Shown piece by piece: positions 8,236-34,009 of a stretch of 35,153 bases of DNA (its first letter is position 1; the number at the start of each line of letters is the position of its first letter). The notes beneath the pieces are model-generated. The model saw nothing but the letters and a program-made list of their open reading frames with translations, was not told the DNA's origin and did no database searches. The position numbers were made by a program, and so were the translations under genes. The stretch is from an uncultured Thiotrichaceae bacterium (GTDB lineage Bacteria > Pseudomonadota > Gammaproteobacteria > Thiotrichales > Thiotrichaceae), in assembly GCA_902727985.1 (NCBI GenBank), contig CACVAY010000071.1:25710-60862 (forward strand). The letters are read 5' to 3'.

Positions 8236-8781
8236 TTATTTGATGAGGTTCAGGAACTCTTGGCGCGTTTCAATTTTGTCGCGAAAAGTACCAAGCATCA
8301 TTGAGGATACCGTTGATGAGTTTTGTTTTTCAACGCCCCGCATCATCATGCAAAAGTGTTGTGCTTCAATGACTACACCTACGCCGGCAGCACCTGTGAC
8401 ATCCTGAATGGCTTCAGCAATTTGCTTTGTTAAATTTTCCTGAATTTGTAAGCGGCGAGCAAACATATCTGAAATGCGTGCTACTTTTGAAAGGCCGATG
8501 ACTTTGCCTTTAGGGAGATAGGCAACATGAACTTTGCCCACAAATGGCAATAGGTGGTGTTCGCAGAGCGAGTAAAGCTCAATGTCTTTTACGATAACCA
8601 TCTGATCATTATCGGACTCAAAGACGGCGTCATTAAGTACTGTTTCTAGGTCTTGATGATACCCACGCGTCAAAAAATCCATGGCCTTCGCGGCTCGTTC
8701 AGGGGTTTTGACAAGTCCTTCACGGTTAATGTCCTCACCCAGATTTGTTAAAATCTGTGCATATAATTCACTGCTTTCCAT
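8236..8781 (-). CDS. folE: GTP cyclohydrolase I (type IA)
   Basis: FolE converts GTP to 7,8-dihydroneopterin triphosphate and formate, the entry step to tetrahydrofolate. The zinc ligands are visible: Cys73 and His76 in [10 protein letters not shown], and Cys145 in HFCMMMRGV. The loop [13 protein letters not shown] and the N-terminal [18 protein letters not shown] are characteristic. At 181 residues it is at the short end of the family (E. coli 222), lacking only N-terminal extension. AAGG lies 9 bp before the start ATG. It stands alone between dapC and the spermidine-synthase-like gene, with gaps of about 100 bp on both sides. Confidence 0.97.
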
Positions 8782-8881
8782 ACATGAAACCTTTTAGTTA
8801 TCTTTGATATTGTCAGGTATGTTACGTGAAAGGCAATTGTTAGGATAATTTTCTTACTTTTCGCCTGCTGCTTTTTTGCTG

Positions 8882-9715
8882 CTATATAATGGTTAATTGT
8901 TGAGCATGTTCAATGAAAGGGAAAGAGAACTGATGGTCAGCAGCAATCTTGTTGGCTGTCTCAATAAGCGCATGTAGAGGAGGGGAGGGAGTCTTTAACC
9001 CAAATAAGACATGGGTGTTTTCATCAGCAAAATAATAAACATAGGGAAATGAGTCTTGAAATTGAATGATTTTTAGGTCGGCTTCGCGATCTGATCCTGC
9101 AAGATATTGGACTGTCACTCCATGGGGTTGTATTTTTGATAGGCACAAATCGTAAAACTCAGGAGTGGTTATTGCTTCTGGATGATCTCCAGCCCCTGTA
9201 AAACAATCCAGTAATATGATGTCATAGTGTTGAGATGTCTGTGTCAAGTGTGAAACGCCATCTTGAGCGACCACACTGATACGTTCCGAGGGCGATAGCC
9301 CAAAAAGCATCTCATTTAATGCTAATACACGTTGATCTAGCTCAGAACCGGCAATATGTAGTTCGGGAAAGTGGTGATGAAATAGCATGGGGGTTCTGCC
9401 GCCACCAAAACCCATCATATACACGTGTTTGGGGGAAGGGCAAAACAGTAGGCTGAGCATCATGACTTGTGAGTACGTGCCCAGTAAATAAAGTGGTTGG
9501 TGGATGTCTATTCGAGACATGGCACCGCTAAGCGTAATTTCCTCAGAACCCGCTTTATGCTCAGCAAAAAAGAGCTGAATTTCTGTGCCTTCTTTAATAA
9601 CTACAATCGAATCTGTGCCATTGACATCTGTCATCAGTATTCCGTCAGGCTTTTTTTCAAGCCATGTCAGGTTTCTCTGAATATTTCGAAGGTTTTGTCG
9701 TTGCCAAGATGTCAT
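8882..9715 (-). CDS. Spermidine/spermine synthase-fold protein, function uncertain
   Basis: The 277-residue protein has a Rossmann-like methyltransferase fold of the polyamine synthase family. MGFGGGRTP (101-109) takes the place of the usual LGGGDG loop, SELDQRV (124-130) holds the acidic cofactor-binding residues, AQDGVSHL follows, and IILLDCF (166-172) sits at the catalytic Asp position. The segment after it (TGAGDHPEAITTPEFYDLC) resembles the family's DP-x-GP-x-LYT-x-EFY stretch but lacks its standard residues, so spermidine synthesis is unproven. An aminopropyltransferase with another substrate or a non-catalytic paralogue is possible. No speD is present. The ATG at 9715 was chosen over a TTG at 9736; neither has a clear SD. 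Confidence 0.75.
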   Translation of the reverse strand: MTSWQRQNLRNIQRNLTWLEKKPDGILMTDVNGTDSIVVIKEGTEIQLFFAEHKAGSEEITLSGAMSRIDIHQPLYLLGTYSQVMMLSLLFCPSPKHVYMMGFGGGRTPMLFHHHFPELHIAGSELDQRVLALNEMLFGLSPSERISVVAQDGVSHLTQTSQHYDIILLDCFTGAGDHPEAITTPEFYDLCLSKIQPHGVTVQYLAGSDREADLKIIQFQDSFPYVYYFADENTHVLFGLKTPSPPLHALIETANKIAADHQFSFPFIEHAQQLTII

Positions 9716-27037: not shown

Positions 27038-27862
27038 ATGGGGATTTTCTCAGGCAAACCATTGTTTAGTCTGCTTACGGCGTTACCCGTTTTATTGGGT
27101 GTCATAACCATAATGTTTGTCTTCTTTAGTGATAAAAGCACACGGCTTAGTTACTCAATATCTATTCCCCTATTTTGGTTTTCCCTGTTTCTCCTCATCA
27201 GCGCTGTAATATCAGGCATCATAGTTTTTATGATCATGAGAAATCAATTGAACCGAAGTAAACGTCTATCAAATAGAGACGAATTAACGGGGTTGTACGG
27301 TGCTAGGGAAATAAACCGTTTCTTACGTTATGATGTTGAACGGTTGTATAGATACAATGGAGACCTATCGCTTATCCTACTTGATATAGATAATTTTTCT
27401 GCCTTAAACGATGAGTATGGTGTTAAAAACGGCGATGTTTTGCTGCAACAACTGAGTCGGTTACTTTTAAAAGGCATTAAATATGTGAATAAGGAAGAAA
27501 AAGAATTTCACGGAATCCGTAATTCAGATATTGCTTTTCGCTATGAAAATCAGGGGCGGATTTTGATTATCCTTCCCGAGACACATGCTAAAGGTGCCTA
27601 TATCGCTGCAGAAAGGATTAGAGAGGCGATTATGTTTACGGAGTTTACTATGCACAGTAGTGATAAAAAGCTTCGCACAACCGTTAGTGCCTCTGTTGTG
27701 AGTTTTAGGACGCAAGATGACACGGTTGAATCGTTGTTATCACGAGCTGGCACGTTATTACAGAAAGCTAAGATCACACAAAATAGCATCGTAATGGAAA
27801 ACCCTCTGAGTACCATAGGTACGCCTTATGATGTTACTTTAACCGAATCAACTGCAGTTTGA
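27038..27862 (+). CDS. Membrane protein with degenerate GGDEF domain
   Basis: The 274-residue protein has two transmembrane helices (about 10-30 and 44-67) and then a diguanylate-cyclase fold. NRDELTGLYGARE (79-91), LLDIDNFSALNDEYG (114-128) and the C-terminal ERIREAI to SRAGTLLQKAK are typical. The signature itself is lost: residues 170-174 read ENQGR where GGDEF belongs (RYENQGRILIILP), so synthesis of cyclic-di-GMP is very unlikely. A longer charged insert (KGIKYVNKEEKEFHGIRNSD) precedes it. It may act as a nucleotide sensor or scaffold. No EAL domain is attached. GAGGTGATGTT upstream supplies the SD. Confidence 0.88.
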   Translation: MGIFSGKPLFSLLTALPVLLGVITIMFVFFSDKSTRLSYSISIPLFWFSLFLLISAVISGIIVFMIMRNQLNRSKRLSNRDELTGLYGAREINRFLRYDVERLYRYNGDLSLILLDIDNFSALNDEYGVKNGDVLLQQLSRLLLKGIKYVNKEEKEFHGIRNSDIAFRYENQGRILIILPETHAKGAYIAAERIREAIMFTEFTMHSSDKKLRTTVSASVVSFRTQDDTVESLLSRAGTLLQKAKITQNSIVMENPLSTIGTPYDVTLTESTAV

Positions 27863-30087: not shown

Positions 30088-31185
30088 CTAGGCTATATCA
30101 GACAAGCGAATCTCTTCTAATAGTTCATAGGGATCTTGGTTTCTGTTATCAGTAACTTTATCAGTAACTTCCGAGCAAATACGTTGCATGATGGGTAAAA
30201 GCTCAAAGAACAGCTCAAGAAGTTCAGGGTCTAGCGAACGTCCCGACATTTCCTTCATTAGTTTGGTCACAACGTCTTCAGAGAAAGCTTTTTTATAGAC
30301 GCGTTCATGGATGAGAGCATCATATTTATCAACAATACAGACAATCCTGGCGGTTACGGGAATTTCTTTTTCTCTGAGTCCATGAGGATACCCTTGACCA
30401 TCCCACCGTTCATGGTGGCACAAGGCAATGGTAGAAGCCATATTTAGCACAGGAATGTTGCTATCTCCCAATAAGTTGGCTCCAATCTCGGTATGTTGTT
30501 TCATTATTTCAAATTCTTCGTCAGTGAGTTTGCCTTTTTTAAGAAGAATTTTATCAGGGATTCCTATTTTTCCGATGTCATGCATGGTCGCGGCTATACG
30601 GATATCATCAATACGTTGTTCATCCCACCCCAATGCTTTTGCCATAGCGGCCGCATATAAACCGATACGTTTGACATGAGCCTCGGTTTCCTCATCACGA
30701 TAGCTGGTCAAACTAACAAGCTTTATAGCGATCTGTTCTTTCTGCTGTTGTACATGTCGTGTACGTTTTGCAATTTCGTTTTCAAGTTTTTCCTGAGAAA
30801 GTAGCCCTTCTCGAAGAGATTGTAACCGTTGTACTTCTTGTCGGTATTTCTCACCAAGGTTTTGTAAGAGAAGTATATCCTCGCCATCAATTTTTATGGC
30901 ACTTGCTTCTAGCGCTAACTCATGACCTTTTTCATCCGCTTCAACCCATGGCCCCGAAGTAAGAGCCTCTATTTTTCCCGATTTCCAATGGCGTTCTGCT
31001 TCATCGATAAAGCACCCTAGGTAAGGAAAATATTGAGTTAACCGGTAAGTGCCTTCACTGTTATGGTTGAGAAAAAAAAGAAGCCAATCAGTTGGTCTGG
31101 AATGAATAATAAATTTGCCGTTAGTGTCTTTTTTAAAGACCACCACATCAAATGAGTTATATATGAGTTCTTCTAGTTTATCCAT
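30088..31185 (-). CDS. HD-GYP phosphodiesterase-like protein with unassigned N-terminal domain
   Basis: The C-terminal HD-GYP domain (about 158-320 of 365) is complete by motif: SYRDEETEAHVKRIGLYAA, MHDIGKIGIPDKIL (His202/Asp203), and CHHERWDGQGYPHGL with the GYP triad, then DKYDALIHERVYKKAF. Cyclic-di-GMP hydrolysis is therefore likely. Residues 1-115 form a separate domain (DVVVFKKDTNGKFIIHSRP, WVEADEKGHELALEASAI) that may be PAS-like or a novel sensor. A coiled coil (about 115-155) joins them. The start ATG at 31185 lies within the last codons of the GTPase gene (8-bp overlap). A TTG at 31260 would extend it across the GTPase frame and is rejected. Confidence 0.92.
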   Translation of the reverse strand: MDKLEELIYNSFDVVVFKKDTNGKFIIHSRPTDWLLFFLNHNSEGTYRLTQYFPYLGCFIDEAERHWKSGKIEALTSGPWVEADEKGHELALEASAIKIDGEDILLLQNLGEKYRQEVQRLQSLREGLLSQEKLENEIAKRTRHVQQQKEQIAIKLVSLTSYRDEETEAHVKRIGLYAAAMAKALGWDEQRIDDIRIAATMHDIGKIGIPDKILLKKGKLTDEEFEIMKQHTEIGANLLGDSNIPVLNMASTIALCHHERWDGQGYPHGLREKEIPVTARIVCIVDKYDALIHERVYKKAFSEDVVTKLMKEMSGRSLDPELLELFFELLPIMQRICSEVTDKVTDNRNQDPYELLEEIRLSDIA

Positions 31186-31681
31186 GATGTTGTAGCAGTT
31201 GCCCCCCCAGGTTACTGAATATTGAATCGACGCTTTGACCAGACTTTGCGCTGGTCTCAAAAACAGGATAATCGGTTCTCTTAAGTTGTGAGAATTGTTC
31301 CTCTGTTACTTCCCACTCATGCTTGATATCTGCTTTATTAATCGCAAATACCACAGGAATCTCACCACAAGACTCGACGACCTTTTGGTGTATTGATAAT
31401 GCCTTGTGGACTGTTGAATTACGTGATCCATCGATGACGATAATATAGCCATCTAGTCCACGTAAATAAGCAGGACGAATGTTCGTAAAATCATCTTCAC
31501 CGGCAATATCCCAAATCATCAGTGATAGTTGTTTACCATCAATTTCAAACACTGCTTTGTCTATTTTAACCCCAACCGTTGTTAAATATTTGTCACTAAA
31601 CAGACTATTAATGTGCTGTTGGATCAGGCTGGTTTTCCCCACGGCAAAAGAGCCAAGCAAGCAAATTTTTTTTTGTATCAT
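31178..31681 (-). CDS. Ras/Rab-like small GTPase
   Basis: This 167-residue single-domain GTPase has all five G motifs: P-loop GSFAVGKTS (10-18), switch I TTVGV with Thr35, G3 WDIAGEDD (57-64), NKAD (115-118) and ETSAKS (142-147). The overall pattern is closest to eukaryotic-type Rab/Ras and not to Era, EngA or MglA. Glu62 stands where Ras has the catalytic Gln61, so intrinsic hydrolysis may be slow or need a partner. No C-terminal Cys for lipidation is present (it ends LLQHHG), so membrane association would need the neighbouring OmpA-like protein. GGGAG lies 11 nt before the ATG, overlapping the previous stop. Gap 15 bp. Confidence 0.94.
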   Translation of the reverse strand: MIQKKICLLGSFAVGKTSLIQQHINSLFSDKYLTTVGVKIDKAVFEIDGKQLSLMIWDIAGEDDFTNIRPAYLRGLDGYIIVIDGSRNSTVHKALSIHQKVVESCGEIPVVFAINKADIKHEWEVTEEQFSQLKRTDYPVFETSAKSGQSVDSIFSNLGGQLLQHHG

Positions 31682-31696
31682 ATGCGTTATTTCTCC

Positions 31697-33412
31697 CTAA
31701 TAAACGCGAATTTGAAAACGAATACTTCGTTCGTTCTCGATGTTTATTTCTTGTTGGTTGTACTGACTTTGCGACACTAGAATAAAACTTGGCACACCTG
31801 ATTGGATCAGCGCATGTTTAATATAAGTTTCGCGTTTTGTTCTTAATTTTCTGTTTTCTTGAAGGCTCCCGGTTTGGTCGGTATTGCCAATGATTTGTAT
31901 TTGAAGTGATTGTTGCAAGCTATTCGTAAGACGCAGTAGCTCAATGATAGACTGGGCTAACTGCTGAATTTGATGTTCTTGATTCGCTAAAGCTGTCGCT
32001 TTGACATCAAAAAAGAACTTTGATTGTTCAATGCCACGAATAAGAGCTTGAGATTGTTGAGAGCGAGTATCTACAACAACGGCCACTTCAGCTGGAATTA
32101 CTTTAAGTTGCTCAGTATTAATACCCTTCAAGCCTGCGACGAATCGCCAATTCTGGTTTAATTGATCAACCCATGTTTCATGTGCAGTACCTCTAATGTA
32201 CAAAATTGCATCATCATGAAGTGTACTAAGCACTCCATCGGGAGGGATCAGTTTTTGCTTTGCGCGTCGAGATAGCATTTCCTTATCCATTGATAAATAG
32301 GGAGCTAGATTAAGCGTGGTTATGTCTCGTGTAATGTCGTGCTGTTGAATGATTTTTTTTGGATCATCAGCTAAGGGGTCAATCAAAGCATCGATTTTAT
32401 ATCCATTGTAAGTTTGGGCCTTATCGAGAATCACCAGACCAGGTGTTTGTTCAAGCTCATTGAGAACAGTTTCCCATTGTTGCTGCTTTTGATAATTTTG
32501 GTAAAACGAAAAGGCTGCTAATCCCAAAAAAGCCGCAATGATGATATATAAGAATTTTGGCGATGATTTCTTCGTCGCTGTTCGCTGTTCCTGTTTGATC
32601 AGGCAACTTCTTAACCACGACTCCGACCTAGAGAAGGCTGCTGTATCGCCATTGTAGCCTTCGAATTCCTGACCAAAATTCTGATGGATTTCTTCTAATG
32701 TATCGCTTAATAAATCATTGAAGTAATTAGGAACATGGCCACGTATCACGCAGGCAATGACAGCTCGGGGGCCATGCTCCATTTGTACGGTCAATTCGCC
32801 CAAGCGCATCTGGCGTAGGTTATCATCATGATCAACATCGAAGGAGTCTTTGATGAAATCTTGAATGGCAGTGAGCATCCCTGACACCATATCAGGGTCA
32901 TTGGTTAAAGCATGCTCGGCTTGTAGGTGTTGAAGCAATAAGCCATTATCTTTATGAATCAAAAATACCTGTTCAACCTGATATTCCAGAGTGTTCATCA
33001 TCATAATGTGTGCATAGCTTTGCCCAGTACGCCATGCATCGAAACGCCAGCGCAAAGCGCGAATTGACAAACTATGTTCCAGCATCTGATTTAATTGAGC
33101 CATGCTATCTGCGAGTGTTTGGTAAATAGACTTACGAATAGCAGGCCCCATAACAGGGTAGAGCACGTCTGCGATTTTTTTAGGATTATTATAAATGGAT
33201 TCGATGAGCATCTGCTCAATCAGAGGGCTTAAGGTTTTTGGAAATGATTGATCTGTATCGAGGCGTTTTTTAATGGCCTCTGAAATGACCTGAGAAACAT
33301 GTGTACTGAACGCTTCATGGTCTTCATAACGCTCACGTAGTTGCAATAATGCATCATAATTATCGCCGAAAAGAAGTTTTCGTAATTGTATTATGTCAGC
33401 AGAGCCCGTCAC
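31697..33412 (-). CDS. OmpA-like membrane protein with cytoplasmic roadblock/longin-like domain
   Basis: The 571-residue protein starts with GTG (weak SD TAGGG). Residues 10-50 carry the helical LRKLLFGDNYDALLQLRERYED. About 143-228 (VEQVFLIHKDNGLLL, GMLTAIQDFIKDSF, LGELTVQMEHGPRAVIACV) reads as a roadblock/LC7 or longin-type alpha-beta fold. A single membrane helix lies at 287-305 after a basic KKSSPK. From about 466 is an OmpA-like domain with Asp512 and Arg527 at the 15-residue spacing of the peptidoglycan-binding Asp271/Arg286 of A. baumannii OmpA. The layout predicts an N-terminus in the cytoplasm facing the GTPase and a C-terminus on the cell wall. No signal peptide is present. Tandem with the GTPase gene. 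Confidence 0.85.
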   Translation of the reverse strand: MTGSADIIQLRKLLFGDNYDALLQLRERYEDHEAFSTHVSQVISEAIKKRLDTDQSFPKTLSPLIEQMLIESIYNNPKKIADVLYPVMGPAIRKSIYQTLADSMAQLNQMLEHSLSIRALRWRFDAWRTGQSYAHIMMMNTLEYQVEQVFLIHKDNGLLLQHLQAEHALTNDPDMVSGMLTAIQDFIKDSFDVDHDDNLRQMRLGELTVQMEHGPRAVIACVIRGHVPNYFNDLLSDTLEEIHQNFGQEFEGYNGDTAAFSRSESWLRSCLIKQEQRTATKKSSPKFLYIIIAAFLGLAAFSFYQNYQKQQQWETVLNELEQTPGLVILDKAQTYNGYKIDALIDPLADDPKKIIQQHDITRDITTLNLAPYLSMDKEMLSRRAKQKLIPPDGVLSTLHDDAILYIRGTAHETWVDQLNQNWRFVAGLKGINTEQLKVIPAEVAVVVDTRSQQSQALIRGIEQSKFFFDVKATALANQEHQIQQLAQSIIELLRLTNSLQQSLQIQIIGNTDQTGSLQENRKLRTKRETYIKHALIQSGVPSFILVSQSQYNQQEINIENERSIRFQIRVY

Positions 33413-33424
33413 TGAATTACCCTA

Positions 33425-34009
33425 CTAGCTACTTTCGAGCTGTTTTGCAAGTTCAGCAAAGGTATTAGCTAATAGTTCGCGATCCGCTTTATCTTTCTTA
33501 AGCTTTGCATGCTCTTCTTCAAAGAGATTCATCAGGTCTTGTTGTTCTTGAGCAAATTCTTTTCTTAGTGCAGCGATTTCTGATGTCATTTTTGTTGATA
33601 GTTGTGTAAACATTTTTTGCATGTTTTCACTAAGCACAAGATGTTGCTGAGATATTTCCTTGAAACGTTTCTGATGCTGAATGTTATCATCAAGACGTGC
33701 TTTGTTTTCATCAGACAGTAACTGATTGAGCAGGCGAATCTCGGTATGCAGAATGTCAAAATCATTCGACATATCGTATCGGATCTTCTGGTCGTGATTA
33801 TCAATCAAAAGCTCAAGATCAATAATGCGCTGATCATGCTCGCGCTTTTGTTCACCGAACAAAATGTCGCGAACCATACTTAAGCTATTATCTTCTGCCT
33901 GTGACTCTGAATGAGTGTGGTGATGATTTTCCGCATTGATCGTTTCAGGGGTTTGCTGAGAAGGCTTATCATCAAGCTGCGAGGGGTTCTCTATAGTGGT
34001 ATTTGTCAT
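33425..34009 (-). CDS. Coiled-coil protein, first gene of the GTPase cluster
   Basis: This 194-residue soluble protein is not a recognised family. The first 45 residues are polar, with a short His run (NHHHTHS). SMVRDILFGEQKREHDQRI (44-62) resembles the N-terminal LFG motif of the next gene's product. The rest (about 55-190) is a charged, Gln/Leu/Glu-rich coiled coil. It lies 12 bp before the OmpA-like gene. No SD is evident; the leader is A/T-rich with a tandem ATTATAAAA repeat. It is likely a cytoplasmic scaffold for the OmpA-like protein or the GTPase. Expression probably starts at the promoter at 34047-34075. Confidence 0.82.
   Translation of the reverse strand: MTNTTIENPSQLDDKPSQQTPETINAENHHHTHSESQAEDNSLSMVRDILFGEQKREHDQRIIDLELLIDNHDQKIRYDMSNDFDILHTEIRLLNQLLSDENKARLDDNIQHQKRFKEISQQHLVLSENMQKMFTQLSTKMTSEIAALRKEFAQEQQDLMNLFEEEHAKLKKDKADRELLANTFAELAKQLESS

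Follow-up and report, generated by a model that had tools for sequence, protein, structure and literature searches.

A predicted longin-type domain in the membrane-spanning, OmpA-like protein of a bacterial Rup GTPase cassette

Background

Which fold does the cytoplasmic part of a wall-associated bacterial protein adopt, and does that fold connect the envelope to a small GTPase encoded beside it? The question is raised by a 35,153-nucleotide stretch of a contig from an uncultured Thiotrichaceae bacterium (hereafter the window), in which an OmpA-like protein, P0001, is encoded next to a Rab-like GTPase of the Rup kind. Rup proteins have been described as the closest prokaryotic group to the Rab/Rho/Ras/Ran GTPases (PMC4915359; similarly PMC4316618), and no Rup had been experimentally characterised when PMC4316618 was written. 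A preliminary description had placed a roadblock/longin-like domain on the cytoplasmic side of P0001 and suggested that it would provide direct envelope-to-GTPase signalling.

Results and discussion

The window carries a Group 1 Rup cassette

P0001 is the second of four same-strand genes, with the following features.

33425..34009, minus strand: P0003, coiled-coil-like cytoplasmic protein, 194 aa, first of the four genes (ORF; coiled coil as described in PMC4316618)
31697..33412, minus strand: P0001, 571 aa, GTG start, predicted longin domain, membrane helix and OmpA-like part (ORF and translation)
32990..33412, minus strand: N-terminal helical region of P0001, residues 1-141 (alignments; model helices, pLDDT blocks of 62-87)
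32585..32989, minus strand: predicted longin-type domain of P0001, residues 142-276 (AlphaFold2, Foldseek against the PDB, VIA-align 2, conservation)
32498..32560, minus strand: single membrane helix of P0001, residues about 285-305 (hydropathy)
31727..32011, minus strand: OmpA-like domain of P0001, residues 468-562 (Pfam OmpA; D512 and R527, 15 apart)
31178..31681, minus strand: P0002, Rab-like small GTPase of the Rup kind, 167 aa (Pfam Ras, 2.5e-32)
30088..31185, minus strand: output protein with PAS domain, coiled-coil-like linker helix and HD-GYP-type domain (Pfam HD_5, 1.3e-35; model and fold search)
30856..31185, minus strand: predicted PAS domain of the output protein, model residues 1-110 (pLDDT 94.6; PAS matches with Z up to 8.8)
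30811..30822, minus strand: LQxxR motif in the linker helix (Gln at 30820-30822, Arg at 30811-30813)

Gaps of 12 and 15 bases separate the first three genes, and the output gene then overlaps the end of the GTPase gene by 8 bases; such short spacing and overlap on one strand make a single operon likely. The ATG of the output gene at 31185 is inferred, the mechanical ORF opening at 31260. P0003 has no convincing Pfam family (best E 0.021) and no membrane segment by hydropathy. The best PDB sequence matches of P0002 are Sec4, Rab23 and Rab35, and its G3 motif, WDIAGED, is without Gln; among 72 aligned Rup sequences, 59 have Glu and 4 have Gln at this point. A sequence check of P0002 found neither a membrane segment nor a CAAX-like end.

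The cassette is that of the Group 1 Rup neighbourhood described by Wuichet and Sogaard-Andersen (PMC4316618), with which it shares a coiled-coil-like gene, a gene joining an unknown domain to a membrane helix and OmpA, a Rup without the G3 Gln, and an output module with an invariant Gln. That study left the 'conserved domain of unknown function' unassigned; it is this domain for which a longin fold is predicted here.

P0001 consists, in order, of a cytoplasmic N-terminal region, one membrane helix and the C-terminal OmpA-like part. With a 19-residue window, hydropathy reaches 1.89 at residues 287-305 and at best 0.9 elsewhere in the chain. The claim that the segment of interest lies before a single membrane helix therefore holds, there being only one strong hydropathic segment, and so does the pattern of three strings on which the domain was first proposed: VEQVFLIHKDNGLLL is residues 146-160 (32933-32977), GMLTAIQDFIKDSF residues 178-191 (32840-32881) and LGELTVQMEHGPRAVIA residues 204-220 (32753-32803), all in the minus-strand ORF 31697-33412. 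Residues 1-141, a helical region without a Pfam match in the window protein, carry the very conserved motifs YPVMGPAIRKSI and WRFDAWRTG; across the alignments PVMGPAIRKSI and WRFxAWRTG are strongly conserved within this region (32990-33412).

Relatives are patchily distributed and mostly keep the gene order

At E <= 0.001, P0001 has matches in 19 of the 57 related genomes, counting its own, and in one of these (G010) the match lies in the OmpA part only. Presence is patchy: all five further genomes of the genus lack the protein, and 16 of 30 genomes from other genera of the family match in the domain region. Searches by blastp of 17 fetched neighbourhoods detected the coiled-coil gene and the GTPase in 16 each and the HD output in 15. 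A scan of genome contigs with P0001 alone gave no confirmed locus; with alignment A1, 132 loci were confirmed, of which 80 were kept. The sequence records of these 80 name Gammaproteobacteria, Cyanobacteria, Desulfobacterota-type organisms, MAGs of Planctomycetota, Latescibacterota and Bacteroidetes, Blastocatellia, Mesorhizobium and others.

The coiled-coil gene lies directly upstream in 77 of the 80 loci, and the GTPase lies directly downstream in 65 and somewhere in the fetched stretch in 71. The 15 loci without an adjacent Rup comprise nine with none in the fetched stretch (L061, L065, L070, L079, L094, L107, L113, L119 and L123), five with a Rup nearby on the other strand, and L122, where a Rup ORF of 599 aa overlaps the longin gene and is read as another frame. 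Three of the nine (L094, L107 and L123) end at a contig end within about 700 bases. The 80 relatives come from one probe and share ancestry, and gene adjacency need not mean binding. No natural longin-Rup fusion was seen among the listed loci L027-L123.

The cassettes also vary in content. A Blastocatellia MAG carries two tandem rup genes (L068:7783-8274 and 8409-8915). In cyanobacterial cassettes and some others, rup and the output gene are separated by an additional gene of about 133 or 330 aa (L059:8205-8606, L062:8191-9189 and L078:8244-9221, among others); those of L059 and L062 have no Pfam family at E <= 0.001.

The cytoplasmic domain is predicted to be a longin

We modelled residues 1-286 of P0001 with AlphaFold2, without templates, from an alignment of 76 sequences. 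The alignments A2 and A3 hold the window sequence and 75 relatives; of the 80, L047, L064, L116 and L121 were dropped as more than 95% identical and L119 for its aligned segment of 354 residues, against 276-299 in the others. Mean pLDDT is 81.8 and pTM 0.55, with block means of 90-97 over residues 201-270, 79-94 over 141-200 and 83 over helix a1. The modelled elements are b1 142-153, b2 159-164, a1 173-190, b3 201-204, b4 207-213, b5 217-225, a2 230-251 and a3 258-268. This order, b-b-a-b-b-b-a-a with an extra helix at the C-terminal end, is in the prediction the arrangement of a longin.

Fold comparison points to the same family of folds by two routes. First, a Foldseek search of the PDB returns 26 matches at E <= 0.001, all of them entries of longin or roadblock assemblies, including the longin-like subunits of clathrin and COPI adaptors. 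The best (2.3e-5) is a TRAPP chain; MglB (4.1e-4) and Ragulator are also matched, and longin and roadblock rows are interleaved. Second, the top 50 rows of VIA are likewise all entries of such assemblies, with longins ranked first: TRAPP chain 2j3t_D, which we take to be Trs23, with Z 13.4 over 125 residues at 2.7 A, followed by Sec22b (13.3), VAMP7 (13.2), the CPLANE chain 7q3d_C, which we take to be Fuzzy (13.0), and Ykt6 (12.8). These top longins (Z 12.8-13.4) align over 117-125 residues at 2.5-2.9 A. MglB reaches Z 10.5-10.8 (106-108 residues) and Ragulator 10.3-10.6 (98-106), at 2.3-2.6 A, and further longins and adaptor subunits tie with them at Z 10.2-11. By the guide of the VIA tool itself, models without a clear match usually reach a best Z of 7 to 8. 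The identities given for several matched PDB chains are provisional.

What separates the two types here is coverage: longin alignments reach residues 271-279 and so span the C-terminal helix 258-268, whereas MglB alignments end at 250-252, which argues that the arrangement is that of a longin rather than a roadblock. There is thus little doubt, as far as a predicted fold can decide, that residues 142-276 form a longin domain. The domain had been described as roadblock/LC7-type or longin-like; the longin part of that description holds and the roadblock/LC7 part is corrected. A comparison of the predicted structure with MglB, LC7 and longins had been set beforehand, and an unrelated fold, the outcome that would have refuted the claim, did not appear. 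The coordinates first given, 32700-33060 (approximately residues 118-238), were too short for the modelled domain at 142-276 (32585-32989): they end about 38 residues before it does, and so leave out one of the C-terminal helices entirely and the other for the most part.

Conservation across the 76 sequences, as mean identity to the commonest residue, is 86.6% over b1 (142-153) and 81.5% over a1 (173-190), where 12 of 18 positions stand at 80% or more; it is low on a2 (44.0%) and a3 (41.2%). When positions of a1 and of a2 plus a3 were shuffled, the observed difference was reached in 0 of 20,000 trials, which is a guide only, since positions within a helix are not independent. With strand and helix conserved in 76 sequences, the three strings are not random sequence. 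Roadblock proteins dimerise through their central helix (PMC10933270). That Rup docks on the a1 face is a possibility, inferred and without binding data.

Sequence searches assign the domain to no family

A Pfam scan of the window domain returned no family up to E 10, and hence no match to PF03259, and a scan of the 76 sequences showed no longin or roadblock among the 25 families displayed of 64. Pfam and NCBIfam scans of P0001 gave no family for the longin region, OmpA being the only Pfam match up to E 1. The domain profile against PDB sequences gave one unrelated match (E 1.4). Comparison by hhalign with six MglB relatives of the same group yielded a probability of 0.8%; the sole local match (score 16, not significant) sets b4-b5 of the domain against an apparently equivalent MglB hairpin. 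As a contrast, hhalign against the PAS domain of the cassette found nothing either. PF03259 does find one separate MglB in the same genome (G000:C39). A profile search of the segment alone, the second check proposed at the outset, thus recovered neither longin nor roadblock, and as no curated longin sequence model matches, we call the domain a longin by fold and do not file it in a Pfam longin family.

Domain and strong Rup co-occur genome by genome

We searched 274 genomes of the class with a longin profile (E <= 1e-10) and a Rup profile, for which a strong match was set at 1e-50. The longin profile matches 22 genomes, each at 7.8e-38 or better, and the Rup profile 33, of which 21 are below 1e-50. 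Both occur in 21 genomes, longin only in one (G211), strong Rup only in none and neither in 252 (Fisher, 1.6e-30). In 20 of the 21 genomes with both, domain and strong Rup are on the same contig, the exception being G302. In the remaining 12 genomes matched by the Rup profile, where the Ras-like matches are all weaker (about 1e-29 to 1e-11), the longin profile finds nothing.

Two reservations apply to these figures. First, the 1e-50 cut was chosen after the data had been seen, at a gap between 1e-52 and 1e-29. Second, the Rup profile was built from longin-bearing loci (alignment A7 combines P0002 with 32 of the 64 Rup ORFs no longer than 190 aa), so that the lack of genomes with strong Rup alone partly reflects how the profile was made. 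We consider it probable that the partner of the domain is Rup, but this is an inference, supported by neither binding data nor a model of the complex.

The wall end is common but not universal

The OmpA match of P0001 scores 24.9 bits against a Pfam cut-off of 27.2, and for this reason we call its C-terminus OmpA-like. OmpA proteins that bind peptidoglycan carry Asp and Arg 15 residues apart. In alignment A6, which holds P0001 and 73 of the 80 relatives (L107 and L123 are excluded because they are truncated or split, and L080, L092, L119, L120 and L121 because of a limit on residues), 65 of the 74 full-length sequences, P0001 included, match OmpA at E <= 0.001 and nine do not; equivalents of D512 and R527 are both present in 59 of the 74 aligned rows. 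The hydropathy of the membrane segment is under 1.6 in 14 of the 80 relatives. Given these nine sequences without an OmpA match and the 14 with a weak membrane segment, wall anchoring is not universal. Wall binding, itself inferred from OmpA similarity, is in all likelihood common among the relatives without being required.

Some Leucothrix-type members (L033-L035 and L040; L053, L055 and L082) keep the longin domain and the membrane helix and end before any OmpA.

The output protein

Of the 69 loci with an ORF downstream of rup, 55 have a gene there with a shared N-terminal output domain. The output alignment has 57 rows from 56 ORFs; alignment A4 holds 52 of these and the window, L087 (X residues) and L104, L111 and L122 (short) being left out. 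The model from these 53 sequences (pLDDT 94.6) is a PAS-like domain followed by a long helix and matches PAS, LOV and PYP entries, among them the PAS/HD-GYP protein 9rc0 (Z 8.4). The PAS match is weaker than the longin match, with Z up to 8.8 and a Foldseek E no better than 2.2e-3. In the LQxxR motif, Gln is present in 52 of 53 aligned rows and Arg in all 53, although the output-domain profile itself contains the residues scored with it.

The Gln was noted earlier and proposed to complete the Rup active site (PMC4316618). What is added here is the prediction that the N-terminal part of the output protein is a PAS domain, and the invariant Arg three residues after the Gln; this Arg is a new observation whose role is unsettled, and it might equally serve helix-to-helix signalling.

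Typical outputs in PMC4316618 are diguanylate cyclase/phosphodiesterase fusions or histidine kinases, whereas here the output is of the HD-GYP type. Ten chosen downstream proteins gave, by Pfam, one GGDEF-EAL, one HD, one histidine kinase with receiver, three adenylate/guanylate cyclases, one sigma-54 activator and three with nothing. The adenylate/guanylate cyclase genes follow rup in Mesorhizobium and others (L112:9389-10459, L103:8313-9536 and L086:8764-9756) and the sigma-54 activator gene does so at L109:3050-4429. With a cyclase or an activator after rup in some loci, the output half of the cassette looks exchangeable. When the output gene was compared with plasmids by blastn, the only match was a short one, in a gene for an HD-domain phosphodiesterase. 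The window also encodes, on the other strand and about 2 kb beyond the HD-GYP-type gene, a GGDEF protein (27038-27862).

A putative route from wall to GTPase

The computed support comprises gene order, co-occurrence, the membrane helix, OmpA similarity and the predicted longin and PAS folds. On this basis we propose that P0001 serves a Group 1 Rup signalling cassette as its transmembrane scaffold. Peptidoglycan would hold the C-terminal OmpA-like domain, one helix would span the inner membrane, and the cytoplasmic part would end in the longin domain, probably a dimer, on which the Rup from the next gene would dock. Docking would bring Rup, which has no visible membrane anchor, to the inner membrane beside the wall. 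The state of the envelope would then alter the hold of this platform on Rup, through nucleotide exchange or sequestration. Rup-GTP would engage the output protein at its PAS-linker region; in this cassette that protein is a putative phosphodiesterase of HD-GYP type and would set c-di-GMP. The LQxxR helix of the output may in turn supply the Gln (perhaps also the Arg) missing from Rup, ending the signal.

Dimerisation, Rup binding and the direction of the signal are inferred, as are the choice between a GEF and a tether role and the HD-GYP activity, and exchange, tethering and sequestration cannot be distinguished from these data. With those reservations, a path that starts at the wall and passes through the longin domain and Rup to the output protein is the single account that we favour, with moderate confidence. 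The direct envelope-to-GTPase signalling first suggested for this protein remains an inference: the gene for a Rab-like GTPase adjoins and tracks the domain, but binding data are lacking.

Alternative explanations

One alternative is that the fold is a longin but does not bind Rup, serving instead for dimerisation or to hold the coiled-coil protein, with Rup acting only on the output protein. In its favour, some longin domains, such as those in SNAREs, work outside small-GTPase regulation (PMC10933270), and the coiled-coil gene is directly adjacent more often than Rup (77 against 65 of 80). Against it, 21 of the 22 genomes with the domain also have a Rup of the strong clade, and the domain is absent from the 12 genomes with weaker Ras-like matches only. 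We consider this explanation unlikely.

Somewhat less likely still, in our view, is that the domain is a roadblock, an MglB-type GAP that would promote GTP hydrolysis in Rup just as MglB promotes it in MglA. Roadblock and longin have one core in common (PMC10933270, PMC3521125) and are related by circular permutation (PMC3521125); MglB is among the best Foldseek rows (4.1e-4), and MglB and Ragulator chains match well in VIA (Z 10.3-10.8 over 98-108 residues at 2.3-2.6 A). A rule based on helix position nevertheless separates the two (PMC10933270). MglB alignments start at MglB residue 27, leaving the first MglB helix unmatched and the model helix 258-268 over. In the model, helix 133-141 runs straight into b1, and the first MglB helix is without an aligned partner, although the packing of the helices was not inspected. 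Moreover, hhalign against six MglB relatives finds nothing, though PF03259 recovers the separate MglB of the genome, and none of 121 Rup genes was coupled to MglB (PMC4316618).

Least likely of all is some other PAS-like alpha/beta sandwich (PAS, GAF or profilin) given its longin look by prediction: the longin has been described as a PAS-like fold (PMC3521125) and sequence assigns no family, yet the PAS domain of the cassette, modelled likewise, matches PAS, LOV and PYP entries with no longin in the rows shown, and the rows shown for the P0001 domain are of longin and roadblock types.

Comparison with known systems

As a longin that may dock Rup, P0001 resembles the longin platforms for Rab GTPases (TRAPP Trs23/Bet5, Mon1-Ccz1 and Fuzzy-Inturned) in its predicted fold and in having a Rab-like GTPase as partner gene. 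It differs in being a single chain that is membrane-spanning, putatively wall-anchored and bacterial; there is no detectable sequence similarity, and exchange activity is hypothetical. With MglB, the roadblock GAP of MglA, it has in common a related core fold and a small-GTPase partner in bacteria, but MglB is small and soluble, has the roadblock helix order and serves MglA, whereas P0001 is predicted to have the longin order, contains a membrane helix and an OmpA-like part, and putatively partners Rup.

Asgard archaeal longin/roadblock proteins (PMC10933270; 8yqg) also present a prokaryotic longin fold, with Rab-like GTPases in the same cells. In MK-D1, however, GTPase and longin genes reportedly do not as a rule share an operon (PMC10933270). 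The present pairs usually do, in 65 of 80 loci, and they occur in bacteria of several phyla. The actinobacterial conservons likewise are four-gene cassettes joining a signal protein and a small GTPase, as is generally known and as PMC4316618 describes, but these are of the MglA/MglB type with a histidine kinase, and no OmpA or longin part is described there.

'Longin/Roadblock' has been tabulated jointly as present in bacteria (PMC4917890). In the open-access literature covered by our search, which was not exhaustive, no earlier longin assignment of a P0001-type domain was found.

Conclusions

Longin domains of the kind predicted here handle Rab GTPases in human cells. Naming the unknown domain of the cassette a longin gives the Rup system its first mechanistic handle, enables a direct binding and exchange assay, and bears on the origin of the Rab-longin partnership; P0001 would offer a physical route from peptidoglycan to a Ras-type switch. 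A bolder reading is that bacteria of several phyla carry a true Rab-longin pair, in which the wall-anchored longin is an exchange factor or membrane receptor for Rup. The balance of evidence tips slightly against this reading as matters stand. If it were correct, the Rab-longin pairing would not be an Asgard or eukaryotic invention, being either older or exchanged between domains, and the bacterial pair would report the state of the envelope to c-di-GMP, cyclic-nucleotide, kinase and transcription outputs.
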